Assembly: GCA_015179125.1 (NCBI GenBank)
Contig: WHVA01000075.1
Span: 186,001 to 250,000, forward strand
DNA from: Gautieria morchelliformis
Taxonomy: Eukaryota; Basidiomycota; Agaricomycetes; Gomphales; Gomphaceae
Direction of reading: 5' to 3'
DNA length: 64,000 nt
This document shows positions 14,581-53,499 of the stretch, one piece after another (within the stretch, counting starts at the first letter, position 1; the number at the start of each line of letters is the position of its first letter). Under the pieces are notes generated by a model. The model saw only the letters and a list, made by a program, of their open reading frames with translations. It was not told the origin of the DNA and did not search any database. The position numbers and the translations under genes were made by a program.

Positions 14581-14958
14581 TCCGTGTTTAAATAGGTACG
14601 TCTTTACACAGGGCGAATTCCGCCCAGGCCCGCAGGCTTAGTCGTCGCATCGACAGTTTTTGCTGCACGTGACCTTTGCGCTGCCTCACGCTGCCTTTTT
14701 CTATCTCGTTTTTTGTCCTTGGGTGCGCTTCGCCCCTTACCGCTGCTAATTTGCGTTCCGCTGAACGTTCTTTCACCCACAGGCCTGAGTCCCGCTTCGG
14801 CACTGCTGGACCCGCGTCATCGGGTTCGTCATAGTGTCTTAGCGGGGGGCTCACCCAGGCCCTTTATCTACTTTCGCGCCCCTACACTTTCTCCCTTGCT
14901 CGCTTTCTCCGCGCCCTTACCTTCGCACAGCCTATTCGCGCCGCTTTTTCGTCTCTTC
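14581..14958 (+). repeat. Left-end A repeat (A1) of a DIRS-order element, intron-less version
   Basis: This block is nearly the same as the A2 block from 29831. It starts at exactly the same base (TCCGTGTTTAAATAGG) and runs to about GCTTTTTCGTCTC. It lacks the 48-nt GT...AG segment found in A2 at 30181-30228. An ATG at 14983, just after the block, opens a short frame (MADNGQSTLSHENSTG), where the first gene of such an element would start. It is separated from the body of the element by about 10 kb of other mobile DNA. Confidence 0.75.
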
Positions 14959-15915: not shown

Positions 15916-16011
15916 AGTCTCGTGGCCAAACTCGGGTTGTACTCAAATTCTTCTCCAAAATATTATTACCTGGCGAAGGTCGTAAGCGTTTAGAAGGTGG
16001 CAGAGATATCC
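15916..16011 (-). pseudogene. Severed C-terminal piece of the cysteine-cluster gene at 24043-25494
   Basis: On the minus strand the frame LPPSKRLRPSPGNN...TTRVWPRDFHV runs right up to the Gypsy I insertion point. It matches the phase and style of the frame that ends at the other border (24043). WP-x-(D/G)-(F/Y)-x-V is a recurrent motif near the end of this Agaricomycete family. The reading frame therefore continues across the insertion site, consistent with one gene cut in two by Gypsy I. A GTAAAGT donor-like site follows DFHV. Confidence 0.5.
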
Positions 16012-16704
16012 TGTTACGTATCGAGATTTCCACTAAGTCGGAACTGGAAAGGACAGCGGCTTCAACTTATAGGTTGCGCCCCCAATGAACTATCGTCCTA
16101 GGTATTTCGGAAATGAGTCGGAAGTCGGAAAGTACTGGACCAGAGGTTTGGTCGGAACTTGTGTCGGAACTGAGGCGGAAAGCGGAAGACGGAAGGCTGA
16201 GAGAGAGACTGAGATCTTGCTAGACTCGCTGTGCTAAGAACAGGAGATGGAGCGAAGGAAATCAAGTATCGAAGGTGATTATCTGATTGCAGAATAACAG
16301 ACATACATGAGGGGGGTTTTATACAAAGCGCAGAGCAACAAGTAATGGTGTTGTACTAAACAAATTCCGGAGGAAGCGGAAGTCGAGTACAATGTGTGGG
16401 AACTAACTAATTGGGAACAATGGGACTACAAGGGGGGTTCAGGGTAAGGTAGAACAATGGCAAAGAACAAGGGGTCGGGAAAACATATCTGACAACGAAC
16501 TACAAGGGTGACCGGATGTGTGGTTTTGATGGATGGCGAGGTGGGTCCGGTGGGTCCGAGTAATCGAGTCGAAAGAACAAGGGAAATGTACAAGGGGCGG
16601 AATGTCGGAAATGTCGGAGGGGCGGAACGTGTGGCGGAACTATTGGAGGGGCGGAAGGAGTGGCGGAACTGAGGGTCGGAAGTCGGAAATGAACGGTCGT
16701 AACA
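16012..16704 (-). repeat. 3' LTR of Gypsy I
   Basis: A 693-bp terminal repeat, the same as 23350-24042 over its full length by eye comparison. Begins TGTTACGTATCGAG and ends CGGTCGTAACA. I count 18 CGGAA pentamers in it, all in the same orientation. Confidence 0.93.
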
Positions 16705-16826
16705 GTATCTCCCTTCTAAGGTCGAGCCCTGCGAGACCACAAGTCGGAATCACGTGACCTGTGAACAAACGCGTCGGAGTTTGAAATATGGGCTGAAGGA
16801 CAAACGCGTCTTCTCTCTATTCCATC

Positions 16827-18054
16827 ATGAGTGCCCCAGTAGATTTCTCGAAGATGTCCAGCGCGGAGATGAAACAGCACTTCGCTGATATGCTCGCGCA
16901 AAAGGAAATGGCCGAGAAACGCGAGGCTGAGGAAGCTGCGCGGAAAGAGAAAGAACGTCGGGAGAAGGAGCGGAAGGAGCAGGAGAGGAAAGAGCGCGAA
17001 CGCCGCGAGGAGGAGGAGCGCGTCCGTGAAGAGAAACGGAAACGGAACGCGGCACGGAAGGCTGCTGCGGACAAGGCTGCTGCAGAGAAAGCGGCTGCGG
17101 AGAAAGCGGAAAGGGATCAGGTGAGTCGGAAATGTCCGGCGGAAATGTTCTTGAAGTTAACTAGAGTTCTTCCAGAATCATGTTCAGGACGAGTCAGAGT
17201 CAGACTCGGAAGGTTCGGCGGAAAGTACACCGACTCCGGAAGGAAAAGGGAAGCAAAAGGAGATTGCGACCCCGGTGAACCTTGTGGCGGAACGGAAACG
17301 TCGAGCGGACGCATTCCAGAAGGCTCGAAAGGAGAAGTTGAGTCGTATGTTGGAACTCCGTGAACTGGGGCCGGAAAATCCCGCGACTAAGAAGCGGAAA
17401 ACTCGGGACGGCGAAGAGGAAAAGGCCCCTTGTGACCCATGCGAGTCTAAGGGGGTGGATTGCTCGTGGTCGAGCAATCCACGGGAAACGTCGTGCGACC
17501 AGTGCCGTGACAGGAAAAGGCGCTGCGTTGTGGACGGGTGCGCTTCCAGGCTGGAGCGAAAGAAACAGAAGGTTGAGGAGTCAAATCCGAAGGCGGAACC
17601 GGGACCGAGCGGAGGGAGGGCCGAGGAATCATTTCCGGTGACCGGAAAGTCGGCACAGGCGGTGTTGAACCGGTTTACCATGGCTTCTCCGCTCCTTGAC
17701 ATCGCCGGGTCGCTGAGGGCCATGCGGGAACAGCAACGCGAAATCCGGGATATCATGATCGATATGGCCGAGGTTCAACAGCATCAGGTTCTGTCGATTC
17801 AGAACCAGATGACTGTTATGTCCACAGTGCTACAGCAGTTGACGCGGGAAATGAGGTGGCGGAATGATTTGGTCCGGGACCGAATGGATGCGCGGCTGCG
17901 GGAGCAGGGAGTTGGGGCGGAAGCGGGTTCGAGCGGTGGGGCGGAAACAAGGGAAAGGGTGGAAACGGAGTTGGTGAGTGTCGAGGTAGAGGAGGCGGAA
18001 AAAGAGCCGGAAGCGGAAGAAGAGGTCGAGGCGGAGACAATGGGGGAGGAGTAG
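16827..18054 (+). CDS. Antisense accessory gene of Gypsy I: coiled-coil protein with a Cys6 cluster
   Basis: Function unknown. It lies between pol and the 3' LTR, on the strand opposite gag-pol. A first open stretch starts at ATG 16827 (MSAPVDFSKMSSAEMKQHFA) and runs into a long charged Glu/Arg/Lys/Ala region, a strong coiled-coil candidate. A second open stretch, ending at 18054, holds two half-clusters, CDPCESKGVDC and CDQCRDRKRRC, spaced by 10 residues (C-x2-C-x6-C-x10-C-x2-C-x6-C), flanked by basic residues (AERKRRADAF, KKRKTR). A hydrophobic/Gln-rich helix (IMIDMAEVQQHQVLS) and an acidic C-terminus follow. The two stretches are separated by an intron-like GT...AG gap near 17120-17176. 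The spacing resembles fungal Zn2Cys6 DNA-binding domains, but with the strongly basic half placed second. A DNA-binding role is inference only. Confidence 0.7.
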
Positions 18055-21000
18055 GGGTATCAAAGACTTGTAGATAATTTCTTGAAGTGTCGGAAAATAG
18101 AGTAACGGGAAATTAATCGGATTTTGGCCAATGACTTGAGAATTGAAACTTGTAAGAAAGCAATAGGAATCGGAAAAGAGGTCGGAATTGACTAGGGTGC
18201 GGAAATGGGGCCAGGCTTGTCAGGATATGTCTTGTGGAAATCAGAGACGAGGTCAGAGGCGTGGTCAAGTTCCGTGGCGGAAATCCACGAAGTCTCTTCG
18301 TCAGTGTTTTCATAGCCTGCCCACTTGACTAGGTACTGGAGTTGGCAGCGGTATCTTCTGTCAAGCTTGGAGTTGAGAATTTCCGAAATCTCATATTCCG
18401 GTTCTCCGTCAATGACGACTGGCGGAGGCGGAGGTTGTTCTCGATTCGGAATTGTATTCGGAACTGCGGGTTCAAGCATGGAGACATGGAATACCGGATG
18501 TACTGCGCGCATATTGTCAGGAAGTCTGAGGGTGAAAGAACGACTGCCGGCCTTAGCGATGATCTCGTAAGGACCGAGGTATTTCTCAGAGAGCTTCTTC
18601 GAGGGGCGAGTGGTGCGGAAGTTTTCAGCTTTGACAAAGGCTTTGTCGCCAATCTCGAATGCCGGTTGCGGAAGTCGTTTCCGATCAGCGGAAGTTTGGT
18701 ATCTCTTCTGGGCAGCTGTAATGTTCTCTCGGAGGTGCTGGTGAAGGTCGTCGAGTTCCACAACGAAATCTTGGGCTCGTGCAGAGGCGAGGTTGCGTTC
18801 GGGGTGGATGGCGAGATTCGGGTGGTAGCCCTTGTTGGCGTAAAAGGGTGAAATTCCGGTGGTGGCGGAAGGCGCATTGTTGTAGGCAAATTCTGCGAGT
18901 GGAAGAAGGTCGGACCAATTGCTATGTTGGTAGTTGCAATAGACGCGGAGATACTGCTCAAGGGTCTGATTAGTACGTTCCGTTTGTCCGTCTCCTTCGG
19001 GGTGATAACCGGAAGTGAAGTGGAGTTTCATGTCGAGAGCCTTGCCGAGTGTGCGGAAAAAGGAGGACACGAATTCGGATCCACGGTCGGAAGTGACATG
19101 GGAAGGGATTCCATGCTTGGAAAAGACGTGGAGCACGAAGAGCTGTGCGAGCTGGGCGGAAGTTATGGTGTCGTAGGTCGGAATAAAGATGGACTGCTTT
19201 GTGAGGCGGTCAACGATCACTAGAATGGTATCATAGCCGGATGACTTAGGAAGTTTCTCAATGAAATCCATGGATATCGAATTCCAGGGTTGATCCGGGA
19301 TCGGAAGTTGCTTCAGGAGGCCGTAGGGTTTGTGACGTTGAGGCTTGGCTCGCATACAGGTGGTGCATGACTTGCAGTAGTCTTGGACCATCGTGCGGAG
19401 GAGGGCCAAGTATAGGTGCGTCGGATTATGTCGAGGGTCTTGTTCTGGCCTTGGTGTCCTGAGAGCGGATGATCGTGGCTTTGCTGAAGTACGCGAAGTC
19501 GTAGATCGTTGGTGTCCGGAACGTAAATCCGGAACTTGTACCGGAGAAATCCGTCGGAATCGAGGGACCATCCAGGACTGGTGGTGTCATCGAGGTGGGC
19601 TGCGGAGGTGGGGTCGGAACGGAGTGTGGATCGGATGTCGGAATGGAGAGACTCGGTGTCCATAATAATTGAGGCGCGGAGTAGCGGAAACTGCAATGCT
19701 GTGGCACGCAGGGACGATGCCAGTTGCTCAGTGGAGAATACTGGGCGGAAATTGTGCGGATTAACGCTGGCATAGTCGCTACTTCCCTCTTTTGGGTAGA
19801 CGTCCCAACGTCTAGTGAGCGCGTCGGGTTTTGCTCCGAGCTTTCCGGGGCGGAAACGGATCACCATGTTGAACTGTGAGAGGTATTCAGACCAGCGGAC
19901 TTGACGGCGAGTCAAAATCTTAGTGGTTGCAAAATACTCAAGGTTCTTATGATCCGTTACAACGTCGATCGGATAAGTTGGACCTTCGAGGTAATGTCTC
20001 CAGATTTTGAAGGCTTCGAAAATCGCAAGTAGTTCCTTATCGTGGACGTCGTAGTTGAGTTCCGGGGCGGAAAAGGTGCGGGAATGAAAGGCGATTGGAT
20101 GAATTTCTCCGTCGTCGGGTGAAATGATGGAAAGAATGGCGGCTAGCACATAGTCAGAAGCGTCGGTTTCGAGTACAAGTTGGGCATCAGGAATCCAGAA
20201 ACCGAGTATGGGAGCCGTGGTGAAGGCCGATTTGAGAGCTTCAAATGCGGAACGGCATTCCGGTGTGAAATTCCATGGGGCACTCTTCCTGGTGAGACGC
20301 GTGAGCGGAACAGTAATGTCGGAAAAATTATAAATGAAACGCCGGTAAAAGTTGGCGAAGCCAAGGAAGACTGCACATCCTTAACACGTCGGGGTTCCGG
20401 CCATTCTTGAATTGCCTTGACTTGTCCTCTGCCATGGTAAGACCTGTTGGAGAGAGGATGTAGCCGAGGTATTCGACCGTGTCGCGATGCCATTCGCATT
20501 TCTCTGCTTTTGCATAGAGATGATGTTTGCGTAGACGGCGGAGTACTTCGCGGACATGTTCCCGATGTTTTTCCGGTGTGTCGGAATAGATGAGGATGTC
20601 GTCAATGTAGACTAGAACGCATACGTCGAGGAGGTCGGAAAATACGTCGTTCATGAATCGCTGAAAAGCGGCGGGAGCGTTGGTTAGACCAAAAGGCATG
20701 ACAGTCCACTCAAAGGCACCGTAGCGGGTGCGGAAGGTGGTTTTCCACTCGTCACCTTCTCGGATGCGGACAAGGTGATAAGCGTGCCGGAGGTCAATTT
20801 TGGTGTAGATCTTCGCCCTGCGGGGAGTGTCGAGTAAGTCGGAAATGCGCGGAAGCGGATATTTGTCCTTTTTAGTGAGGGCATTGAGTCCGCGGAAATC
20901 GACGCAGAGGCGGAGAGATCCATCCTTCTTCTTGACGAAGAGGACCGGAGCGCCGTGCGGAGACAGCGAAGGGCGGATAAAGCCCATGTTGAGATGTTCA

Positions 21001-23349
21001 TCGACGAACTCTCGGAGAGTTAGGAGTTCACTTTGCGAAAGGAGTAGATCGGTCCAAGGGGCGGAGATGCTCCTTCTTCCAAATCTATCTTCAAGTCGTA
21101 AGGTCGATGTTCAGCAGGTTTGTCGGCTTTGGCCTTATTGAACACGTCCAGGAAGTCACGATATTCTTCCGGAACTGAGCTCATGTCGACCGGAGCGGAA
21201 GTCGAGGCGGAACGAGCCTTGACTGAAGCCGAATCGGAGAGGTGAAGCTGGAAAACGGTCGTATCATCTTGCCGTTGCAATACGCGGAAAGCGGTGGCGG
21301 AAACGAGCGCAATTCGGGGGCTTCGAGGGGCGGAGGTGCTAAAGCGGGACCGGAGTGCGGAACTGAATCCACGAGCGGAGTTGCAGAAGAGGCCTGAGCC
21401 ATCTTTGCAGAAGACGTCGGAATAGATGGAAGTTGATCCGGGGTACGGAACTGTATTTGACCCAATGCCCAGTTAATCGACGGATTATATCGGGTGAGCC
21501 AATTGTGTCCTAGTACAACGGAACAGCTAGCATCTAGCGGAGTAACGTAAAACGTAACTTCATGGTTGTCCCCAGTAGCGAAATGGATAGACAGATCCAC
21601 AACTTGGGAAATTCCCGTGTTGGAAGACCCGTCGAAAAGGCGGAGCGGAATAGTCGGAATGTTGCGGGTCGGAAGTTTATGTTTCAAAACAAAGTCGGAA
21701 TCGAGGAAACAATGAGTCGAACCGGAGTCGACCAATGCTGTAAACGGGGGTGCGGAAATGGTGTCGGAAGTGAGCGGAACAGAGAGAGAGTCGGAGGACG
21801 AAAGAGCGGATGCGTTGAGTTTAACCTCGTTTGTCGCACGAATGGGGTCAACACAGCCCTCAGCTCGTGCGGAGGCCGGAGGACTGCTGACTATTTTTTT
21901 GAATCCGCAGCGGGAACCGCTTCGGATTTCTCTTCCGTCTTTGCTGCGCGGCCTTTGGCTTTAGCAGCGGAGGCGGAAGCTCGAGTGCAGTCGCGAGCGA
22001 CGTGACCTCCTTTGCCACAGAAGAGGCAAAGGTTGTTGTCCATGCGACGCTGGCGTTCTACAGGGGTTAGTTTTCCGTCTTTCCCAAGTTTGTCGGAAAG
22101 ATCCGGGGTGCTCTTCCGGGCGTTGGTGTTAGAACCAGAGGCCTGGTTGTTCCGAGGGGTGTTGTTGTTGTTCCGGTTGCCGGAGTTGGATCCGGAACTG
22201 TTGTTGTTGTTGTTTCCGGAGTTGGTGTTTCCGGAATTGGTCTTCTTCTTGTCTTTATCAGACTTCTTGTCGGAAGACTTGTCGTTCTTGCTCTGGGCGG
22301 AGGTTTCACGAGCAATCTCGGAGTGTCTTTCCCAGTAGCGCGAATCGATGGATTGGGCAGGTTGCGGAGGTCGGTAAGGGTGGCGGGTTTTCCGACACGG
22401 GCAATTTCATCCTTGATGCGGGATGGCAAGCCCATGTAAAACTGGCGTCGGAGTGCGGCTTCTCCCCATTGGACTCGAGGAGCGAGCTGCTGAAACGTGA
22501 CGATATATTTAGCTATCTTATGAGTGTCTTTCATGCGAAGCTTATCGAGTTCATTTTCCGCATCGGCTTCCATGTCAAATGGTCCGAAGTTGCTGCGGAG
22601 TTCGGAAATGAAGTTGGGGTAATCGTCGGCCCAGTCGACGAGAGCGAACGGATCCATGAGGGCGGGTTCGAAATAGTCGAGCGCCGTGCCTCGGAGATAG
22701 GAAAGGGCATAATTGACCTTTCGTTCGTCGTCGGGAAAGGCGTCGGGACGATCACGGAAATTGAGTTGAAGCTGAACCAGAAATGGCTGGAGCTTCTTGG
22801 GGTCGGAACCGTCGAACTGATCTGGTTCGCGGACCTTTGTCTTGGGGCGTGGTGGTGCTTGGGCCGGGCGCTGGAGTTGTCCGGCTAGCATGGCAATGGC
22901 TTGTGCAAGATCCGGAACTGGCGCGGGCGGAACTGGGTTGGCGGGAATCTGAGGTGGAATTGGAGGTGGAGGACCGCCTGGGGACCGCCGGGTGGGCCGC
23001 CATGAGGGCCGCCTGGAGGGCCGCCTGGAGGTGGTCCTGGTGGAGGTGGTGGTGGTGGAGCTGGGCGTCGGAATGACGCTGCTGTTTGTTCGCCGCTGCT
23101 ACTCGTCGAATTCCCGTCGTAGTCGGGATTGTCGTCGGGATTAGCGTCGGGAACTTCTTCGAAATGTTGCGGAAAAGCATCGGGAAACTCATCGTCGGCA
23201 CGAGAGCTGCTGGAGGGTTCCGCGTGCCTTGGTGCTGCGGATCTAAGATTGCCAAAATAAGAGAGAGCTTTGACAGCTCCTGCTCGAGCTGAAGTAGCTG
23301 TGGTACGAGGAGGCATAGTGATAGTTATCGGGTGGGAATCAGATAATAC

Positions 23350-24042
23350 TGTTACGTATCGAGATTTCCACTAAGTCGGAACTGGAAAGGACAGCGGCTT
23401 CAACTTATAGGTTGCGCCCCCAATGAACTATCGTCCTAGGTATTTCGGAAATGAGTCGGAAGTCGGAAAGTACTGGACCAGAGGTTTGGTCGGAACTTGT
23501 GTCGGAACTGAGGCGGAAAGCGGAAGACGGAAGGCTGAGAGAGAGACTGAGATCTTGCTAGACTCGCTGTGCTAAGAACAGGAGATGGAGCGAAGGAAAT
23601 CAAGTATCGAAGGTGATTATCTGATTGCAGAATAACAGACATACATGAGGGGGGTTTTATACAAAGCGCAGAGCAACAAGTAATGGTGTTGTACTAAACA
23701 AATTCCGGAGGAAGCGGAAGTCGAGTACAATGTGTGGGAACTAACTAATTGGGAACAATGGGACTACAAGGGGGGTTCAGGGTAAGGTAGAACAATGGCA
23801 AAGAACAAGGGGTCGGGAAAACATATCTGACAACGAACTACAAGGGTGACCGGATGTGTGGTTTTGATGGATGGCGAGGTGGGTCCGGTGGGTCCGAGTA
23901 ATCGAGTCGAAAGAACAAGGGAAATGTACAAGGGGCGGAATGTCGGAAATGTCGGAGGGGCGGAACGTGTGGCGGAACTATTGGAGGGGCGGAAGGAGTG
24001 GCGGAACTGAGGGTCGGAAGTCGGAAATGAACGGTCGTAACA
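23350..24042 (-). repeat. 5' LTR of Gypsy I
   Basis: A 693-bp LTR, the partner of 16012-16704. It abuts the minus-strand cysteine-cluster gene on its right side. Confidence 0.93.
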
Positions 24043-25494
24043 TATCCCCGAATTGTGGCTCAAAGAAGTGGAGGGTGTGGATGAACGAGAGGTTGGAAAC
24101 AAGGTCGAAGTGAAAAGGAAGGCTCTGTCATGAGGGGTGGGTGAACGGCTAGATGCCAAAAGCGGGGAGGAAAGGGCAGAACTGGTGCTTGACGAAGGGG
24201 ATAGTGTGGCCGTGGAACTTGGGATCGTAGGGGAGACAAGATCATCCAGGCGACGCTTTCTTTTGCCTAAGCTGTGCTGTATACTCAACTCCTCTTCAAG
24301 GCCCAAGCACGCGCTATCATCTATTGTAGCGGTCACCGTCCTAATAAGCTTATAAAGCAGCCGATCGTTTTCTCGAACTGTTCGTGTAGTTTCAAGTGAA
24401 TGTTGTTCCCAGTGCTGGTGTGCTGGAATCCAAGTTTCTATGGCATCATCTGCATGTATCGGTATTTCATTCACGAGCTTATGTGCCAGACTGAGAGAGA
24501 AATTAGGGTACGAAGGAAGAGGAAGTCGGTAGCGGTATGGTTTAGGGCTTCCCTATGTGAACCGTTGGTCTAGTGTACGCATATGACAAGATATTGACTC
24601 ACACTGTGCCACACGATAAGGTTGACATTTGTTCGGCTCACTTGGTTAAGGTCACGGACCACTACCTGACTCACGCGTTTTGCTTGTGAGCGTATCTGTG
24701 CTGCCATTGATGTTTCTGACCACAGATCACTGATGCTTGATGACAGAAGGTGGCGCTGACCGCTATTAGAGAGCTGAGTAGACCGTGCGGGAATAGGGAT
24801 ATCTTCTCGCACTTTAGGACTTGTAGGATTGGGCACCAAAAGAATAGGAATTCTAGGAGTTTGAGCGAGCGTAGGGTTTACTGGCCCATCCCGTTGTCTA
24901 GTGCGCTTCATATGTGCTGCGCACTCTCTCCGAAAGGTACCAGCTACTTTCGTATCCTCAAACTCCTTGTCACAGCAGCCACTGCAGCGACCATACAGAC
25001 ACTTGGAGTTGCGCTTGTGGGGGTTCCTTGTCTGACATTCCGGGCCACTACATTTGTCTACAGGATTGGCGGGAGTTTTAGCACAAGGGGCAGGAAGGGG
25101 AGGATGAGAGGCATGTGGTGCAGGAAAGGCAAGAAGGGGAGGCACATAGGCAGGTGAATGAGCATTGTAGTACTTTGCAACGGCTTCTGTGTGCTGAAAG
25201 ACAGTGTACGCATCACTATAGAAGATCGCATAGTTACAATATCGATTAGAACACTAAATTAATCATGCTTAGCTTGACTAGATGATCACAAAGATGAGTA
25301 AGAGATCTTACAAGTTGCATAATTGGGCCGCGGTTGCTTGTTGTCGATGCCCCTTTACAGACCACAAAATCACCGAGGCTGCGTTTGCAATCAGGACAGT
25401 GTGACAAGCGGCGCGGAATTTGCGGATTGGATTGGTCGGGACCACTAGGTGGGATAGGAACAGCAGCAGCATGACCATTAAGAAGAAGACTCAT
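24043..25494 (-). CDS. Cysteine-cluster protein of a multicopy Agaricomycete family, cut by Gypsy I
   Basis: Unknown function; I recognise the architecture as a large, uncharacterised family in mushroom genomes. It starts at ATG 25494 (MSLLLNGHAAAV). The first exon contains CPDCKRSLGDFVVCKG and ...NRGPIMQL, then a GT donor near 25309. The next coding part (about 25190-24600) has PPLLAFPAPH, then the cluster KCSGPECQTRN...SKCLYGRCSGCCDKEF and RRECAAHMKR. After an intron the frame resumes with KPYRYRLPLPSYPNF, then ADDAIETWIPAHQHWEQHSL and RENDRLLYKLIRTVTATIDD, GLEEELSIQ, KRKRRLDDLVSP and a Ser/Thr-rich linker ending at the Gypsy I border. Its last piece appears at 15916-16011. Apart from the insertion the frame looks well kept, so the gene may have been active until recently. 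Intron positions are approximate. Confidence 0.55.
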
Positions 25495-28400: not shown

Positions 28401-29734
28401 CGTCGGCTTCTGATTTATACCGACTCCATGAACACGGTTGATATGTTCCACTCGCTCAAAGCTCACACTTCCTACAACTGCTTGCTTCTCTTCGCTGTCC
28501 GTTTGCTCCTTCCCCAGACGTCTTCCCTCCGCGTCTTCCACATTCCTGGTGCCGAAAACACCGTCGCCGATGCTGTCTTCCGCGGCCTCTTCCATGTCGC
28601 CGCTGCCTTACATCCTGCATTACGTATACGCATTTTTCAACCCCCTCGGGATGCGATGGGGGCTGCAGTTTAATGTTCCTTCCCACCACGCGTGGCCGGC
28701 AGCCGATCAGAACTGCCTGGTCACGCGAAAAGCTCTGGTATGAATGCGCCGTTGCACTGGGCCATGCCATTGAGCCTTCAACCCGCCTTGCTTACAACTC
28801 GCATCTCCAATCCTATTTGACATTTTGCAAACTGCACAACTTCCCCATCGAACCCTCACCTGACACCCTCAGCCTTTTCGTCATTTTCATGTCACATCAC
28901 ATTAAGCCCAATTCTGTTTCCGCATATTTGTCTGGCATCTCCAACGGCCTCGAGCCCCATTTCCCTAATGTTTGCTCTGCTCGCGCTGCCCTCATTGTTC
29001 GCCGTTCCCTCGCAGGCATGCGCAAATCGCGCGGCGCTTCCATTCCTCACCAAAAGCGCGCTCTAACTCGCGATGACCTTATCACTCTGCATACTGCCTA
29101 CGGCTCCCCCTCCCATGACGACCTTCTCTTTGTTTCTATGGTCCTTACTGGTTTCTTCGCCTTACTCCGCCTTGGTGAGATGACCCTCCCCGATTCCCCT
29201 TCCAAGCGCTCCTCCAAAGAAATCGTCTCCCGCTGCTCTTTGCACTTCCTCCATGACCAATTCTCGTTCCAGCTACCTTATCGCAAAGCAGATCGCTTCT
29301 ACCAGTCCAGTACCATAGTCATTCTCCACGCGCTTCACTTCCCTCTCGACCCGCTACTTTTTATGCAGCGCTACATTTCTTCATGCGACAATCTTTTTCC
29401 TTTTCACCCTGAACTTTGGCTCACTTTGGCTGGCGTCACCCCTACCTCTACCTGGTTCCTCTCATGCCTCCGCCGCATTCTAGGTCCCGGCATTGGCGGC
29501 CATTCTCTTCGTTCTGGTGGTGCGACTGACCTAGCCATCACCGGCGTTCCCGACAACCTCATTCAAGGTATGGGATGCTGGTCCTCCAAGGCCTTCAAAG
29601 TCTACATTCACAAGCACCCTGTCATCCTGCACGCCCTTATCCATGGCCGCCCCACCGCTGACGCCCCCTCCTGAAAAACTTTATCCTCACCCATTTTTTC
29701 CTCATCTCCCGTTCACCCTTATACCACCTTTACA

Positions 29735-29830: not shown

Positions 29831-30408
29831 TCCGTGTTTAAATAGGTACGTCTTTACACAGGGCGAATTCCGCCCTGGCCCGCAGGCTTAGTCATCGCAT
29901 CGACAGTTTTTGCTGCACGTGACCTTTGCGCTGCCTCACGCTGCCTTTTTCTATCTTGTTTTTTGTCCTTGGGTGCGCTTCGCCCCTTACCGCTGCTAAT
30001 TTGCGTTCCGCTGAACGTTCTTTCACCCACAGGCCTGAGTCCCACTTCGGCACTGCTGGACTCGCGTCATCGGGTTCATCATAGTGTCTTAGCGGGGGGC
30101 TCACCCAGGCCCTTTATCTACTTTCGCGCCCCTACACTTTCTCCCTTGCTCGCTTTCTCCGCGCCCTTACCTTCGCACAGGTAATTAGTCCCTGGCTCGC
30201 TTGCCCCGCGCATACTGACTTCACGCAGCCTATTTGCACCGCTTTTTCGTCTCCCCACCCACCCCTCTCTCTTTGTTCGCATCCCTGTACGGCTCGAATG
30301 CTTTTTCCCCTTGGGGTTTTTTAACACCTCGAGTCATCATCAGGTAGCTCCTACATGTCCCTTTCCCTCACACCTTTTTTTTGCATACTTGTATTTTACT
30401 GGGTACCG
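29831..30408 (+). repeat. A2 repeat and spacer of the DIRS-order element
   Basis: Starts with the same TCCGTGTTTAAATAGG as A1 (14581) and matches it closely up to 30180, then again from 30229. It includes a 48-nt insert not in A1. The rest up to B2 is pyrimidine-rich. Confidence 0.85.
30181..30228 (+). other. Intron-like 48-nt segment present in A2, absent from A1
   Basis: Begins GTAATT, contains CTGAC about ten bases before the end, and ends ACGCAG. The sequence on both sides is continuous in A1 (CTTCGCACAG|CCTATT). This fits a small fungal intron that was removed in the RNA ancestor of A1. Confidence 0.65.
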
Positions 30409-43560: not shown

Positions 43561-43614
43561 GATGAAACACCATCCACTTACCGCAACTTCCTCATCTTCC
43601 TCCACACTTGGCTT

Positions 43615-44436
43615 CTTTCATGGAAAGTTGTTTAAGTAGCAACAATCCTTTCGCTGGCGAAGGTGCTCCTTTGGAGCCCTTCACCAACAGCACAGATAAT
43701 AGTTCGAAGGCTAAGGTAACGAAGGTGAAGTATGAAAACTCACCAGTGGTGCTTAAGTCTTCCTCTGGTCGAAGATAGAAATCTACAGGAGAGGGCTCAA
43801 GACGATGGTCACAGTGAGGTCAAGTTCTGCACAAGATAGACATATGATAATTGAACTGGGGAATATACATGCGAATGGAAACTACTTATGTTGAATGCTC
43901 GTATGATATCAGCGAATAGGAAAGAGGCCGTGGTGAGTCAGGGTTGGATAGGGGTGCGCAGTCATGATACAAATAGATGAAACACAGATACAATAGAATG
44001 AAAGAGGAGTGCGAACATGAAATGACAGGGAGGAAAGGGGATGAAGGTACTTATGTATGAAAACACACCTTGGGACCTGCATATACGCCACCCTGCACGG
44101 ACTCTTTGTCTGCTGGGTTATCCCACACGACCTATGGGTAGGACGTCCCGTGAATGCATGCTGGCCATATGAACACCTAAAGGGTTGGATCAGGAAGATG
44201 ATGGGGCCAGTGATGAACCATCACGCCGGGTAGAGGATGTCGATCGTGTTTGATGGCGTACCTGCTGGCGAATGATGCAAGCAGCGAATGGTCATTCAGT
44301 GAACGAGGTGAAGAGTGAATGGAGGGAACATGGAGGAGGAGTGGCCAAAGGGTAGGCGAACTCAGGCGAAGCTGCAGGAGGAGCGATGAGGGGAACATAG
44401 AGACAGCGAGGTAAGGGAAATAGACATGTCATGACA
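43615..44436 (-). repeat. Truncated LTR copy of the Gypsy II family, inverted
   Basis: Reads as the reverse complement of much of the LTR at 44986-46016, with the characteristic TGTCATGA start at its right end (44436). The far end of the LTR is missing on the left. Many base differences suggest an old copy. Confidence 0.75.
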
Positions 44437-44985
44437 CTTACTCCGGACTTCATTCCGGACTTCCCAAGCAATATTCGGCTTCCTTGCCTGTTGAAAATTG
44501 GCCCTGGCCTCAGTTTCCCCCTGGCTGCCCGCTGCTTCGCATACTCAGCATTCATCACCTGAGCCTTCGATGCATTACCGGCATTCACTTTCTCCTGCTC
44601 TCCTGACTTGGCCTGTTGCTTCACCTCCTGGTCAGCTTTTTCCCAAGCCTCCCAAGGCGCTCTGATCCACTCCACATCACCCTTCTCATGCTCCTTGCGC
44701 TCTTCTTTGGCCTCCTGCAGAGCTTCGGCTCGCCGTCATCGTCTTCAGCTAGCTTCTGCTCTTCCTCCGCCTTCCACTCCCTCTCAGCAGCCTCCTTGTG
44801 CAGTTTAGTAGTGTGCTGCCACTCCCTCAGTTCTTCCAACCTTGGGTCCCGCTCCCGCTCCGCCACCTCAAGCAACCTTTCGAGTTCTTCAGAGTGGGCT
44901 CATGGGCGTCAGATATGATGATTCGCGAAGATGATGGAAGAAGGAGGGCAAGAAGCAAAAAACACCACAAAGCTTAAAACAAAGC
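44437..44985 (-). other. Coiled-coil coding remains between two opposed LTR copies
   Basis: Minus-strand open frames with LEVAERERDPRLEELREW and KEAAEREWKAEEEQKLAEDD, then WEKADQEVKQQAKSGEQEKV, resemble the charged coiled-coil region of retroelement-borne proteins such as the Gypsy I accessory product. No catalytic domain is seen. Whether this is gag or an accessory gene cannot be decided. Confidence 0.4.
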
Positions 44986-46016
44986 TGTCATGACCTGTCT
45001 ATTTCTCTTACCCCACTGTCTCTATGTTCCCTCTCGTCACTCCCTAGCATCTTCGCCAGAGTTCGCCGCACCCTCCGACCACTCCTCCTCTACGTCCACT
45101 CTACCTGCTGTTCGCCCCATTCTCCGAACCGCTATTCGCTGCTCGCGCATTTCGCCAGCAGGCACGCCATCAAATATGATCGATACCATTCACCCGGCAT
45201 GATGGTTCATCATTAACCCCATCATCTTCTTAATCCAACCCCATTAGGTTTTCATATGGTCAAAGTGTGTTCGCAGGACGTCCCTTCCATAGGTCGTGCG
45301 GGATCAACCCAGTAGACAAAGAGTCCGTGCAGGGTAGCATGTATACAGGTCCCAAGACATGGTTTTGTCCATAAGTGCCTTCGCCACCTTTATTCTCCGT
45401 CATTTCATGTTCGCATTCCTCCCTCACTCTATTGTATGTTTATTCCATCTACTTAGTATCATGACCGCACACCCCTATCCGACCCTGACTCACAACGGCC
45501 TCTTTCCTATTGGCTAATACCTTGCGAGCATTCGATATAAGTAGTTTATATTCGCATGTATATTCTCCAGTTCAATTATCATACGTCGTCCATCTTGTGC
45601 AAACTTGACCCCACTGTGATCATCGTCTTGAGCCTTCTCTTGGAGATTTCTATCTTCGACCAGCAGAGGACTTAGGCATCACTGGTGAGTTCTCATACTT
45701 CATCTTCGTTACCTTAGCCTTCGAACTATTTTCTGCGCTGTTGGCGAAGGGCTCCGAAGGAGCACCTTCGCCGGCGAAGGGATTGTCGCTACTTAGACAG
45801 CCCTTCCATGACACCTTGCACATTGTATCATCAAGTGCCACGGGCCATTTCGCTACAACTGTAGATAGGGCAAGCCCCGTTCGGGCAACCCTCCTATCTT
45901 CTGAACATTCATTGGTTCACGTATTCGCCAAATGGCATACTTATTCGCACAAGTCATTCGGGCATTCGCTGTGTTCACTAATAGACGATATTAACGCCTA
46001 AAAACCAATCTTGACA
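44986..46016 (+). repeat. 5' LTR of Gypsy II
   Basis: About 1031 bp, from TGTCATGACCTGTCTATT to CAATCTTGACA. Inverted relatives lie at 43615-44436 and 57646-58608. Confidence 0.8.
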
Positions 46017-47589
46017 GTATAATTGAACTAACAGCTACAGTCAAAAGCATTCATTCCACCCATTCATCACCTGTTTTTTTATGTGCACCCCACACCACAT
46101 CTGTTCGTGGGACAGCCTTACCGTTTCGAAGGTCGCCTTCCCCCACACCGAACATTTTCTCAGACTCCTGTCCCACTCAGCGGGCCTGCCCTATTCCCCT
46201 TCATGGGACAACTCCCTTTTTAAACACCCCTCTCTACAGATTCCTGCTTCACCTGGCGGGCCTGAGCCTTGTTTATTCGCGGGACAGCCTTACCCCTTCA
46301 TGGGTTGCCCTTCCCCATACCAATCTTTCACACAGCTTTCTGCCCTACTTGGCGGACCTGGGCCTTCTCTCTCATTAGACTCGTTTTCCACAACTCTTAC
46401 CCATACCTGTTTTATCCCTCCGAATAACAACCCTATCAACTCTGTACCACCAACGTGCTTATTCGCCTCTATTAGCTCTCATTCCGATTCATCCTTCATC
46501 ATTCATGTACACCTTCCCTGTCTCTCTAGCTCAATCCCTACCCTCATTGACTCTGGCGCCACTTCCAATTTCATTGATAGCTCCTTTTCCTCCCGTCCTG
46601 GTTTCGTATGTACATCGCTCCGTTCACCAATCGCTCTCTCTCTTTTCAACGGGAAGCCAGCCACTGCTGGTTTCATTCACGAATACCTAGATACTAGTCT
46701 CACCTTCAGCGATTCCTCTTCGCAGGACATTTTGCTACTTGTCACAAAGTTACACCCTTCGGCCGCGATCGTTCTCGGGCTTCCGTGGTTTCGCTCTACG
46801 AAACCCACTATCGATTGGGGCTCCCTCTCAATCACCTTTCCTTCCAACCCCGATTCTATGCTTCCACGTATGACGGTCACTATGGCCTGTACAATGATTT
46901 CCCCGCCGGCTATCTTCGACAGTATCCCCAAACTTCACACTGCATCGATGACTTCACCACCACCAGTCCCTGGTTCACATTTGTCCCGGCCATCCTTGGG
47001 TTACGTCCCGAACACGGCGATTGGACCACCTCCCCAGATCCCGGTCTTTCTACCGGACGTCGCTTCTTCGCCCACTCCTATTCCGGATCTTTCTGGTTAC
47101 GAACAGACGTTTGACGTGGATGGCGAACCCTTACTTCTCTCAACCAAGCCGATCGAGAATCACTCCTCTGAGTCCTCGATATCGCTTCCTAACAATCTCA
47201 TCCGTCTATTTTCAGTCACAAAAGAACGCATAATAGAAACCGAACCTATTCGACCAAAAACAGAGCCCGTTACGAGTCACTCTCGCCCTTGTACACCATG
47301 TACAGAATTACTGACCGATGACCACCTCCCATTCCATTCTTCGCCCCCCAACTCACCTTCGACAAAAAGGGCAACACCGCATATAAGCTTAATCAGTGCA
47401 TCCGCCTTTGAGCTAATCATAAAACTCGGCGAAGAAGAAACCTTCATGTTGAACATGCATCCTACCATCCCTGAACCAACTTCACTTCGCGCTGTAGGCA
47501 ACACCCCAGCCCCGACTACACTCCTCCGTGGGAAACCCCTACCGAAGGACGAGTTAGAGATGTTCAGGGCTGTGGTACCAGAGGAGTAC

Positions 47590-49180
47590 TGTCATGATTC
47601 GTCTATTGTGTGAATCTTCCCTCAACACACAGTGAATGACCTCCTCAACCAGCGAACAGCTTCCCGACCCAGCGAATATCTTGCCAAAATATTCATCGCC
47701 ATACTGCTTTCGCATTCGCTATTCGCATCATTCCTGCCAGGACACCAGGTGTTGGGGCCCTCATCCATCATAGAACCCATCATCTGTTAAACTCCCACTC
47801 CATGACAGACCCACATGTTCAGGATGCATTCGGATAGTGCCAGTTGCAGTCTCCATGCAGGTTGGACTCAATGGGACTTGTACCACTGCAGGGCAGGACG
47901 AATTAGCTTCGCTGAAGTTTTCACTACACAGTTGTCATGACCCATTCATTTCTTGTATCAAGCTATCCCTGTTTTCCCTTTCACCACTCTTCCATGTTCG
48001 CTCGGCTTCGCTCCATTCACCCCTTGCTCAATTCACTATTCACCACATTCGCCAAATGGCCATTTGCTACTTGCATCATTCGCCAGTAGCCATGCCATCA
48101 AACACGATCGACATCCTTTACCTGGATTGATGGTTCATCACTGGTCCTATCATGAATTGCAAGGAGGTGCAGGCTGTCATGACTCATTTATTTCTTGTAC
48201 CCAGCTATCCCTGTTGTCCCTTTCACCACTCTTCCATGTTCGCTCGTCTTTGCTCCATTCATTCCTCGCTCCATTCACTATTCGCCACATTCGCCATATG
48301 ACCAGTTGCTACTCGCATCATTCACCAGCAGGCACACCATCAAACAGGATCGACATCCTTTACCCGGGTTGATGGTTCATCACTGGTCCCATCATCTTCT
48401 CAACTCAACCCCCTTTGGGTGTTCCTATGGCTAGAATGCATTCGCGGGGCATCCTACCCGTAGGTCATGTGGGACCAACCCAGCAGACGAAGAGTCCGTG
48501 TAGGGTGGTGTATATGCAGGTCCCAAGGCATGTTTTCGTACATAGGGGCCTTCGCCCTCTTTCCTCTCCATCATTTCATGTTCGCACCCCTCTTCCATTC
48601 TATTGTATGTCTATTTCATCTATTATGTATCCTGACTGCGCACCCCTATCCAATCCTGACTCCAGACGGCCTCTTTCCTACTCGCTAGCACCATATGAGC
48701 ATTCGGTATAAGTAGTCTACATTCGCATGTATATTCTCCAGTCTAATTATCATACGTCCATCTTGTGCAAACTTGACCTCGCTGTGACCATCATCTTGAG
48801 CCGTCTCCTGTAGATTTCTATCTTCGACCAGAAGAGGACTTAGGCATCACTGGTGAGTTCTCATACTTCATATTTGTTACCCTAGCCTTCGAGTTATTTT
48901 CTGTGCTGTCAGCGAAGGGCTCCGAAGGAGTGCCTTCGCCGGCGAAAGGATTGTCGCTACTTAGACAACCTTTCCGTGACACCTTGCACGTTACATCGTC
49001 AAGTGCCACGGGCTATTTCGCTATGACTGTAGATCAGGGCGAATTCCTTTTGAGTAACCCTCTTACTTCTTAACCCTTACCTCTTCAGTACTGTTCGCTG
49101 GGCGATTTGCTAGATCGCACACGCTATTCGGGCATTTGCCACTAACATGTGATATTAACACCCAAAATCCCATCTTGACA
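47590..49180 (+). mobile_element. LTR-type insertion inside Gypsy II with AGTAC target duplication
   Basis: A 1591-bp segment with TGTCATGA...CTTGACA ends, flanked by AGTAC at 47585-47589 and 49181-49185. Its right two thirds match the Gypsy II LTR. It contains three TGTCATGA starts (47590, 47933, 48175); the segments beginning at the last two repeat each other over about 242 bp. No coding domain. Best read as a solo LTR of a related family with internal duplications. Confidence 0.82.
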
Positions 49181-50371
49181 AGTACCATGACTTCTTCGAT
49201 ATCTTTTAACGTGCTAAAGCCAAAGACCTGCCCCCACATCGTTCCTACGATCACACCATCGAGATCGAGAATGATGGCACACCACCTCACGGTCCCATAT
49301 ACCCACTCTTGAACAGCGAATTAGAAGTGCTCTGCGAATATCTCGACATGCTTGGCAAGGGATTTATCCGCTCCTCCCAATCACCTGGTGGCGCCCCTGT
49401 TGTGTTCACAAAGAAGAAGGATGGTACACTGCAAATGTGTGTGGACTATCAAGGGTTGAACCGTATCACGCGAAAAAAACAAGTACCCTATCCCACTGAT
49501 TCCGAGTCTTATTGACCAACTCAAAAGCGCGAACGTCTATACCAAATTCGACCTTCGCGCCGGGTTCAATAATGTTCAGATCGCCTCTGGCCAAGAGTGG
49601 AAGACAGCCTTCCGAACTCGATATGGGTCCTTTGAATATCTCATCATGCCGTTCGGGTTAACGAACGCTCCGGTGATGTTCCAGCACTTCATGAATGATA
49701 TCTTCCAGGACATGGCTGACGTCTTCATTGTAGTCTACCTCGACGACATCCTTATCTTCTCCAAGAACAGGAAGGATCACTTGGAACATGTCCGAATGGT
49801 CCTCGCCCATCTTCGGAAGCACAACCTCTTTATAAAGCCAGAGAAGTGCCTCTTCCATTCGAACTGGGTCGAATTTCTCGGATTCATTATCTCTCCTGCT
49901 GGGGTCTCCATGGACGTCGAAAAGACAGCTGCCATCACAAAGTGGCCTGTACCAACGAACGTTCGCGAAGTCCAATCGTTCCTAGGCTTTGCGAACTTCT
50001 ACAGAAGATTCATCATTTCGTTCTCAGACATTGTCCTGCCACTCACTCACCTGACCAGAAAGGATACTCCATTCACCTGGGACGCGAAGCAGCAGGACGC
50101 TTTCGAAGCACTCAAGGCCGCGTTCTCACAAGCCCCAGTCCTCATCCACTTCGACCCGAGTAACCCGATCGTCATCGAGACAGACACCTCCGACTATGCC
50201 ATTGCTGCCATCATCTCCCAGATCACCCCCTCCAATGGTGATATCCACCCGATCGCCTTCTATTCACGAGGAATGGCACCTGCCAAAATGAACTATGAGA
50301 TCTATGACAAGGAACTACTCACCATCTTTTGTGCCTTCAAGCAATGGTGAAACTACCTCGAAGGGGCATCC

Positions 50372-50868
50372 TGTCAGCAACTAGGGGCTATGGCAGGGAA
50401 GGTTCGGTAGAGTTCTTAGAAAGCTAGAATCTAGAATCAAATATACTCTCTCAGTGAATTTATTGTCACTGATGTATTAATACAATACCTAGAATCAAAT
50501 ATACTACATGATTTTCAGTCAACATGCTATGTAAATATGAAGAATACTACTCGCCTCTCTCAGTGAATTTATTGTCACTGAGAGAGGAGTGTAATCCTGT
50601 CTCAGAAGGCATATACTTGCACCCGGCCCTTTAGCGCCCAAGGGCTCGCGCGTCGAAGTCATTTCAAACTCCGCTGGGTGCAGCCGCCTGTGAAAGTAGA
50701 AATAACAGAATGAAATGGAGAGATAGAGAGTGACTGGAAAATTTCGAAAATAAGCAGAGAAATGGATGCATGGTACAAGAACAATGTGAGAAACAATTGG
50801 AAACACCACACAATAAATTGAACATATTATGCTTGATTTTGGTGCAGGAGCATAAATGCACCCAACAC
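50372..50868 (-). repeat. Solo LTR of the Copia B family inside Gypsy II
   Basis: About 497 bp, highly similar to 42340-42823, with TG...CA ends. A perfect 5-bp target duplication CATCC lies at 50367-50371 and 50869-50873. It interrupts the RNase H part of Gypsy II. Confidence 0.92.
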
Positions 50869-52630
50869 ATCCCACGTCATCCTCGTCCTCTCTGACCACA
50901 AGAACCTTGAGTACTTCGCAACTACAAAGCAGCTGACCCGACGACAGGTAGGATGGTCCGAACACCTGTCAGGGTTTAACTACATCATTCGCTACCGAGC
51001 TGGGCGACTTGGCACAAAGCCGGATGCATTGACCCGTCGGGGCGACGTGTACCCTAAAGGGGGGGATGGTGCTTATGCATTAGCGAATCCCCACAACTTC
51101 CAGTCGATGTTTAAAACCGGGCAACTCATTCACGCCATCATCCTTGACTCTGCATCACTGTTGACATCCATCCAACAGGGCCAGTTGACCGATCCCTCGT
51201 CCTCAGCCCACATCACCTGTCTTCAGTCTCAGTCGATGATGGTCCTCCTTCCGAACACAAAGCCAGACCCTTGGTCACTTGGAGAGGATGGCAAAACACT
51301 GTTGTACAAACAGCGAACGTATGTCCCCGATCATAATGATATTCGCTTGGACATCCTTCACTCGCTGCATGATCATCAGTAAGCAGGCCACCCAGGGATC
51401 AGCAAAACGATGAAAAACATTGGGAGACAGTATCATTGGCCGAACATGTCCACCTTTGTCACCAACTATATCAGCTCCTGTTCCAAGTGTCGCCACGCTA
51501 AATCCATTCATCACAAACCCTTCGGTCCTCTTCGCTTTCTGCCCATCAGCCAACAACCTTGGGATTCGATCTCCATGGACTTCATCGAGGGACTCCCACC
51601 ATCGGATGGACACGATATGATCCTCGTCATTGTCGACAGGCTAACGAAGATGGCCCTGTTCATTCCGACATTCTCAGACATCGATTCAGGAGACGTCGCC
51701 ATGCTCTTCCTTCGCCACATATTCACTAAACACGGTAGCCCCAGCGACATCGTCTCCGATCGAGGGAAGCACTTCACATCTCGATTCTGGACCTCTCTCT
51801 GCGAAATCCTCGGCATCAGGGGTAATCTTTCTACAGCCTACCACCCCCAAACTGATGGCCAGACCGAACGAGTAAACCAGATCCTCAAGCAGTATCTCCA
51901 AGTCTATATCAACTACCAGCAGGACGATTGGGTCGACCTTTTGCCTCTCGCCAAATTCGCCTACAACAACACAGCCCATTCGGCGACCCAGGTCACACCC
52001 TTCTCCGCCAACAAGGGTTTCCATCCAAAGCTCGAAGTATCGCTCACTTCGGTCGCTTCCAAGGACGCTTATCGCCAGTCAGCAGACCTCAAGGACCTTC
52101 ACCAATACCTTCGAGATCAAATCAAGAAATCAATTATCCAGTACACTTCGGCCACAACCAGTCGCCGCATTCCGAGCCCTGAGTTTCAGGTCGGCGACAG
52201 AGTATGGCTCGACTCGCGAAATATTCACACAAAACGACCTTCAAAGAAACTCGACCACCGAAGACTTGGCCCATATCCTATCATGGCTAAAATATCTTCT
52301 CATGCATTTCGCTTAGGCTTACCACTGGACCTTCGCCAGATCCACCCTGTGTTTCATGTATCCCTTCTCAAACCCGCCACGACATCTACCATCCCAGGTC
52401 GATATGCAGACCCCCCACCTCCTATCGAAATTGACTCTGCCGATGAGTACGAGATCACAAAGATCCTCAATAGTCGCATTCGCCGGAAGCGATTGGAATA
52501 CCTAGTGGAGTGGAAGGGATACGAACACACTCCCGACACTACGTCTTGGGAACCCTCTTCGAATGTTACTAATTCTGCTCGCAGACTCACCGAATTTCAT
52601 GCAAAGTACCCCCAGAAACCCAAGGCTTAG

Positions 52631-53499
52631 ATGTTTACCAAACCCCAAGAAAACGACACTCTGTTCACATTCTACCTATAGATTCAACTCCCTTAATTAA
52701 TCTCCTCTCAATCCTCACCCAACTCCCTTCGACTCATTCTACGCCTGCAACCGACACCTCGTCAGACGCTCCGAGCTCCCCATCAACCTCTTCGCCCCCC
52801 CTCGATGGCTAGTAAGGGTACTCGAGGGTTGTGCATCATGCTTGGCCATCGTCCTGACCATACCCCTCGCTATCCGTGCCCTCTTACCTTCCCCATCAGG
52901 AGTGAAGCAGATGTGCAGTCGCCTCACTGTGACAGGCTCTGCAGCTTTCGCCGACCCAGGCATACCCTGGCCGGCTGTGAATCAGAGTAGGGGACTTCGC
53001 CGAATGCATCACCAAGTTAGCATAGTCGTCACAAGAATACATGAGAAAACTATACCTTCCAGGTCCTTCCTAGTCACCTCCCTTCCTTCGCACCCCTTCG
53101 ACGTCAGCCTAAAAATCGGAGCCGGAGTCAAATTGATATCCGCTTCTGCGGGTACCAGTTCCAATGTCGGTGCCGAACTTTCTAACCACACCCTCACTTT
53201 CTGGACCTCCTTTGCCAGCTCGTCTACTTCGGACGGTCTTTCGAACGTTTGGTCGACCACCTCCTCGGCCTGCAGCATTTTCCGAAGCTCCTCCTAGACC
53301 TCATCATTGAGCGAACGAAAGCTAATAAAGGAAAGAGCGGTACTCACTTGAACCCCTGCCGCATCGACCAACCCCTGTTCCACATCCCCACACGACTCTC
53401 CCCAAAGCTCTGGCCTAACCCTCCACATGATCTGCGATCGATCGAGGAGAACTGAGTACCCAGGTGTCGTCATAGGGGCAGTATGCTTGGCTGGGGTGC
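52631..53499. other. Unresolved stretch after Gypsy II pol
   Basis: The plus strand has no clear gene. On the minus strand a frame near 53009-53278 (MLQAEEVVDQTFERPSEVDE) has helical, charged character, and a Cys/Lys/Arg-containing stretch follows it (about 52740-52960). This is the place and strand where Gypsy I has its antisense gene, so a decayed counterpart is possible but unproven. Confidence 0.35.

Follow-up and report, generated by a model that had tools for sequence, protein, structure and literature searches.

The antisense-strand genes of HTLV are spliced, encode bZIP proteins, and have an LTR promoter; VANDAL elements are DNA transposons; and proteins of the Zn2Cys6 family have six cysteines spaced C-x2-C-x6-C...C-x2-C-x6-C. 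Antisense additional ORFs, often of the TRP28 type (PF04195), are carried by plant Ty3-gypsy retrotransposons of the Retand/Tat group (Retand, Grande, and RIRE2), and HBZ and APH-2 of HTLV are antisense-strand retroelement genes whose products are nuclear proteins, as described in passages of PMC11963269. The VANC anti-silencing proteins of Arabidopsis VANDAL elements are encoded by the transposable element (TE), in which a short motif has accumulated; the motifs of VANC21 are located in tandem repeats of noncoding sequence, and each family has motifs of its own (passages of PMC5735166 and PMC10398659). CGG triplets in pairs are the typical target of Zn2Cys6 proteins, which dimerise via a downstream coiled-coil (passage of PMC5559640).

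Gypsy I, a chromovirus in the genome of the fungus Gautieria morchelliformis, carries on the strand opposite gag-pol a real protein-coding accessory gene of its lineage, which is under purifying selection. The element was analysed in a 64,000-nt stretch of contig WHVA01000075.1 (the window, to which positions given without a contig or locus label refer), and copies were sought in the genome of 122 Mb and 1113 contigs, the sole fungal genome covered. Like a VANDAL element with its VANC gene, Gypsy I is a TE that encodes a protein and has accumulated a short motif, CGGAA, in its own sequence; it differs in that the motif also fills coding sequence (five gag/pol stretches lie beyond synonymous shuffles), in that the motif is constant while the protein diverges, and in being a chromovirus, whereas VANDAL is a DNA transposon. 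With HBZ and APH-2 it shares the antisense-strand position of a retroelement gene, but Pfam and the descriptions set these apart: the Gypsy I protein has a Zn2Cys6-like cluster instead, and neither bZIP nor TRP28 (PF04195) was matched in Pfam up to E = 1 when the exons were scanned apart. Its likeness to the fungal Zn2Cys6 family (PF00172) lies in the cysteine spacing, a basic half at model positions 1-13, a downstream coiled-coil candidate, an acidic tail, and a CGG-containing candidate site; it differs in that the halves are reversed, the cluster stands mid-protein, the scores fall under the Pfam cut-off, and the gene is TE-borne on the antisense strand. A close parallel in gene arrangement is Retand: there, too, an extra gene is found between pol and the 3' LTR on the strand opposite gag-pol, it is kept across copies, and its product is suspected of being a regulator that binds DNA (passages of PMC11963269). 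Retand elements belong to plants and are not chromoviruses, whereas Gypsy I has a chromodomain, a gene with an intron, and a short predicted spliced product (390 aa) with a Zn2Cys6-like cluster and without TRP28; Gypsy I is also studded with a short motif, and no element-wide motif is mentioned for Retand in the passages of PMC11963269. As far as the passages show, none of the Retand, VANC, HTLV, and Zn2Cys6 systems combines an antisense spliced zinc-cluster gene, a coding-wide motif, and cassette exchange, and among the papers listed in literature searches, judged by title and start of abstract, none described a fungal chromovirus with an antisense gene.

The features of the element are collected in Table 1. 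LTRs, the order protease-RT-RNase H-integrase, and a C-terminal integrase chromodomain were all found in Gypsy I, and the two LTRs are identical, with no mismatch inside the repeat. The antisense gene lies on the + strand, from an ATG at 16827 to a stop ending at 18054, between the 3' LTR and the pol stop, which ends at 18192 on the - strand; gag-pol as a whole is on the - strand. The sequence-only reading, which had proposed an antisense accessory gene of a chromovirus with its own ATG, gave exact coordinates, and the LTRs and chromodomain were confirmed. In the window copy gag-pol (18192-23098) is split over several overlapping frames despite the identical LTRs, and these frame breaks may be real or may be assembly indels; in several sibling copies pol is an open frame of 1257 aa. 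Direct repeats of 98% identity (14581-14880 and 29831-30130) flank a region that contains Gypsy I and a frame at 28442-29674, which we take to resemble a tyrosine recombinase and for which Pfam gave no match; Gypsy I may lie inside a DIRS-like element.

Table 1. Positions in the window of Gypsy I, its antisense gene, and features of the predicted antisense product.
Feature	Position	Strand	Basis
Gypsy I, chromovirus	16012-24042	-	LTRs and Pfam domains
3' LTR, 693 bp, TGTTACG...CGTAACA; upstream of antisense gene	16012..16704	-	Offset comparison, printed ends
5' LTR, 693 bp	23350..24042	-	Repeat comparison
Target-site duplication TATCC, 5 bp	16007..16011 and 24043-24047	.	Flanking letters
Integrase end, SH3-like domain, and chromodomain	18192..19586	-	Pfam rve, SH3_Tf2-1, Chromo
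RNase H and integrase zinc-binding region	19313..20380	-	Pfam
Reverse transcriptase	20328..21110	-	Pfam RVT_1
Aspartic protease region	21181..21960	-	Pfam RVP_2
gag region with CCHC zinc knuckle, two frames	21891..23098	-	Frames and Pfam
Exon 1, 98 codons; charged stretch rich in E/K/R after a conserved N terminus	16827..17120	+	ORF and allele comparison
Intron, 55 nt, GTGAGT...TTCCAG (GT-AG), phase 0	17121..17175	+	Kept in sibling alleles
Exon 2, 292 codons and stop	17176..18054	+	ORF, genome matches, dN/dS
Six-cysteine cluster C-x2-C-x6-C-x10-C-x2-C-x6-C, exon-2 residues 86-117	17431..17526	+	Sequence, Pfam half-matches
Long predicted helix (coiled-coil candidate), exon-2 residues 172-249	17689..17922	+	AlphaFold2 model
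Acidic C-terminal tail, net charge -14 over 42 residues	17926..18051	+	Charge count
CGGAA sites across element (123 CGGAA and 25 TTCCG vs 19.2 and 8.9 expected)	16012..24042	+	Counts against expectation

What had been read as an intron-like gap is an intron whose donor is kept in all copies examined. GTGAGT stands 49-58 nt upstream of exon 2 in 9/9 alleles and in all 29 loci of a second set (L038 belongs to both), while 10/10 further loci have GTGAGT followed by CAG or TAG 52-56 nt downstream. CAG or TAG directly precedes the exon-2 match in 28 of the 29 loci, and the match in L033 begins one codon later; the intron has therefore been held while surrounding sites diverged (dS about 1). An antisense intron could survive retrotransposition because the sense genomic RNA would not present it to the spliceosome. 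Exon 1 of L041 contains, at about 1530-1690, a tandem array of units of about 15 bp encoding repeated KEQEW, so exon-1 length varies among alleles.

Genome searches scored the best candidates only, so that copy counts are lower bounds, and a split match counts as two. With the window exon 2 as query at least 140 matches were obtained across the genome, and with a divergent allele again at least 140, of which, among the matches listed, 116 had no in-frame stop (138 places scored among the 140 matches listed). Homologues in sibling elements, the lack of which had been named in advance as fatal to the proposal, are thus plentiful, and relatives of the protein were found neither in viral contigs (365 pattern stretches) nor in prokaryote genome contigs (109 pattern stretches). 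Among the matches listed, 14/16 Gypsy I pol copies have an adjoining antisense match. The gene is in two pieces in different frames in one pol copy (L064), and it is internally deleted in L065 (C394; L065:231-550), which has a 1257-aa open pol frame. An amplified deletion derivative of the L065 type was considered and rejected, the deletion junction being spanned by 1 of the 41 matches listed, and on these matches the deletion copy looks like a singleton. Among the same matches, C670 has two flanking pieces only 346 bp apart, which is perhaps another shortened copy.

Purifying selection, the other point on which the sequence-only reading had staked its claim, was evident from Ka/Ks. Differences among 19 exon-2 alleles number 7907, 5678, and 16610 at the three codon positions, 55% of them at position 3. 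Over 153 pairs the median amino-acid identity is 0.74, dS 0.91, and dN/dS (omega) 0.17, with a maximum omega of 0.38; dS values near or above 1 are imprecise. The linked integrase end gave dS 0.21 and omega 0.15 over 153 pairs. Pair and tree counts use 18 of the 19 alleles, no integrase stretch having been found in L044.

In the predicted product, the conserved N terminus and E/K/R-rich stretch are followed, in order, by a basic helix at exon-2 residues 34-63, the cluster of six cysteines, a basic segment, a helix of 78 residues (172-249), and the acidic tail. The cysteine spacing is as the earlier reading gave it, and of the 19 alleles compared, 18 or all 19 retain any given cysteine. The accompanying claim of a Zn2Cys6-like domain with reversed halves also held. 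The first half matches positions 8-36 of Pfam Zn_clus (PF00172) and the second half, taken alone, positions 1-13, so the halves stand in reversed order; however, exon 2 scores 13.4 bits and the half-fragments 16.1 and 12.2 against a cut-off of 21 bits, and Zn2Cys6 membership is therefore not established. The strong coiled-coil that had been proposed also needs qualification, as exon 1 is a charged E/K/R-rich stretch and the better candidate is the exon-2 helix, for which AlphaFold2 gave a pLDDT mostly above 90. The model as a whole is mostly of low confidence (pTM 0.23), the cysteine region included. A PDB profile search with the protein gave 0 matches up to E = 10.

The antisense gene has a history of its own relative to its backbone. 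Compared in 200-bp steps, the window copy and L043, whose own LTRs are 100% identical, share 93-100% identity over LTR, gag, and pol, and the steps between 16812 and 18211 are the only ones to drop, to 69-82%; their exon-2 proteins are 70% identical. The same dip over the antisense gene was seen when L039, L040, L041, and L045 were aligned to the window, and it is shallowest in L045, whose antisense allele is closest to that of the window. Among the window copy, L043, L052, and L053 (five pairs), the integrases are 98-99% identical and the exon-2 proteins 61-81%. Exon-2 dS exceeds integrase dS in 152/153 pairs, and the two sets of distances are uncorrelated (Mantel r = -0.09, p = 0.67). The exon-2 tree conflicts with the linked-integrase tree, and each gene's data reject the other's tree in the AU test, at 1000 resamplings, which the program itself rates as few. 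Because backbone and gene conflict and their distances are uncorrelated, antisense alleles have been reassorted among gag-pol backbones, and we infer that recombination between elements was responsible. Judged from these comparisons, the antisense gene is an exchangeable cassette. That a single gag-pol backbone occurs with several antisense alleles, deeply diverged from one another, is reminiscent of an allelic polymorphism that is being maintained, and it raises the question of why the alleles diversified.

The CGGAA sites occur in the LTR, the intron, both exons, pol, protease, and gag. Expected counts were computed from dinucleotides. On the + strand the 3' LTR, counted to 16703, has 18 CGGAA and 1 TTCCG, and motif density in the LTR is 27.5 per kb with both strands counted. 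CGGAA is the top-ranked 5-mer in 8/8 elements; among these, the limits of L041 and L045 were set by eye, and L042 and L044 were taken with flanking sequence. Synonymous shuffles that hold amino acids and codon usage fixed were made for ORF stretches, some of which overlap slightly. TTCCG in gag, protease, RT, RNase H, and integrase (10, 15, 6, 12, and 17) exceeds all 1000 shuffles in each case, as does CGGAA in the antisense gene (21, against a shuffle mean of 9.6). For CGGAA on the gag-pol strand, the shuffles per 1000 that reach the observed count are 3 in gag, 11 in integrase, 64 in RNase H, 237 in RT, and 734 in protease. Across the gag and pol stretches TTCCG occupies each of the three codon positions, which together with the synonymous shuffles rules out codon usage or peptide repeats as the source of the motif.

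The ratio of observed to expected motif is 3.0-6.0 in 18/18 Gypsy I stretches and 0.5-1.4 in 14/14 controls, all loci including flanks. The controls comprise six other stretches of the window, six loci of Gypsy II, among them the window's own copy (L046), and two pol-end loci of a third chromovirus (L062 and L063), which cover only the pol end and downstream sequence; the six Gypsy II loci are thus free of CGGAA enrichment. Gypsy II occupies about 43600-53300 of the window on the + strand and is a chromovirus with a chromodomain and many decayed siblings. Genome-wide, three-site CGGAA clusters number 10,940, against 902 for the reversed pattern. A spacing of 12 bp between CGGAA sites was found in 10 pairs, against 1.5 expected, and may reflect small duplications. 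The motif is unchanged between divergent antisense alleles. On this evidence, CGGAA has been written into Gypsy I by selection, beyond codon and amino-acid constraint.

The reading that we favour, and to which we give about an even chance, is that the antisense protein binds CGGAA and thereby regulates or protects its own element. Its central coincidence is that a Zn2Cys6-like protein is encoded by a CGGAA-rich element. Transcription of the antisense gene would run opposite to gag-pol, probably starting at a promoter in or adjoining the 3' LTR, and would give a spliced mRNA. The product would most likely be nuclear, dimerise through the long coiled-coil, and contact DNA via the Zn2Cys6-like cluster with swapped halves, and its most likely targets would be CGGAA sites in the LTRs, in coding sequence, and in the antisense gene itself. 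Binding would presumably activate the chromatin of the element or hold it open, through transcription or anti-silencing via the acidic tail. The self-encoded regulator proposed from the first gains independent support from the CGGAA sites. Points against the favoured reading are the Zn_clus scores under the Pfam cut-off, the low model confidence for the cysteine region, CpG decay that is no slower at CGGAA, the constancy of the motif across divergent alleles, in contrast to VANC systems, and the one pol copy in 16 (L065) whose antisense gene is internally deleted. An exclusive link between protein and motif is also weakened by a second chromovirus family, L066.

L066 (C2:104600-106800) was found via the motif search, and its integrase is 42% identical to that of Gypsy I over 401 aa. 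The family gave at least 97 matches at 99-100% identity with open frames up to 1463 aa, and by these identities its amplification is very recent. It contains 12 CGGAA and 18 TTCCG, against 2.8 and 3.0 expected (5.2 fold), beyond synonymous shuffles in both orientations and with no strand bias. Motif arrays stand at C2:104495 and C2:110255, 5.76 kb apart, and the array is taken as the LTR. Its pol is open up to the edge of the examined stretch, about 80 bp from the motif array, so the antisense gene of Gypsy I does not fit there, and none was found between pol and array, the one position searched. Presence of the motif without the gene at that position weakens the exclusive link; either the Gypsy I protein would serve L066 in trans, or CGGAA would be read by a host factor. 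In a fuller version of the favoured reading, which is tentative, Gypsy I would have its own sequence-specific anti-silencing or activation system, with the antisense gene as cassette and CGGAA selected element-wide, and L066 would have come convergently to the same word by hitchhiking. To our knowledge, a retrotransposon regulator acting on a word across its own coding sequence would be new for fungi. Were it true, TE anti-silencing would become approachable outside plants through a compact protein and a five-base candidate site, and the motif in a distantly related chromovirus would let hitchhiking be set against use of a host factor.

That a host factor, such as a host Zn2Cys6 activator, reads CGGAA, with at least two chromovirus families exploiting it independently and the antisense protein otherwise employed, is the best placed of the competing accounts, though a doubtful one. 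It accords with the distant pol of L066, its at least 97 matches, its shuffle-proof motif in both orientations, and the lack of a gene before its array. It fits poorly with the strand bias of the gene-bearing family (123 vs 25) beside an unbiased L066 (12 and 18), with the absence of enrichment from two further chromovirus families of this host and from other window stretches, and with the Zn2Cys6-like cluster of the antisense protein, which fits CGG. We consider it unlikely, taken by itself, that L066 carries CGGAA in order to use the Gypsy I protein in trans. The same motif in the same genome, the distantly related pol, and the missing gene at the usual position all agree with such hitchhiking, and L065, with a deleted gene and an open pol frame, is as expected of a trans-acting product; against this, that deletion copy looks single.

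Also improbable is an action like that of HBZ of HTLV-1, in which the antisense protein would act on RNA or on the sense promoter, repressing or tuning sense transcription, or would bind UUCCG/CGGAA RNA. RNA binding of this kind would account for the strand bias of the motif, and the antisense position resembles that of the HTLV antisense genes in passages of PMC11963269, but the cysteine spacing and downstream coiled-coil candidate fit a DNA-binding Zn2Cys6 protein better, and the Pfam matches listed for the protein include no bZIP or RNA-binding family. A chance antisense ORF or a by-product of a sense-strand gene, finally, is improbable in the extreme and was rejected, for although long open frames also occur on the other strand (0-7 stops across 19 alleles over the 828 nt facing exon 2, one frame being stop-free in 1/19 alleles and another in 3/19), none of the opposite frames stays open in the majority of alleles, frame +0 shows 0 or 1 stop across the 19 alleles against 4-13 in the other two + frames, and omega is about 0.17.

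Shielding of CGGAA CpGs from methylation-like decay, a candidate effect of the antisense protein in a silencing-escape role, was rejected. In 27 of 29 close Gypsy I copies (two that fell below 85% identity over the stretch were left out), and at columns in which at least 90% of copies share the window's letter, CpG decay was 0.0105 and 0.0092 at CGGAA against 0.0084 and 0.0083 at other CpGs, that is, as fast as elsewhere. This lends no support to the version of silencing escape in which CGGAA is protected. Among close Gypsy I copies (L010-L038), C and G undergo transitions about 2.6 times as often within CpG as elsewhere, an excess that suggests CpG methylation of these copies.
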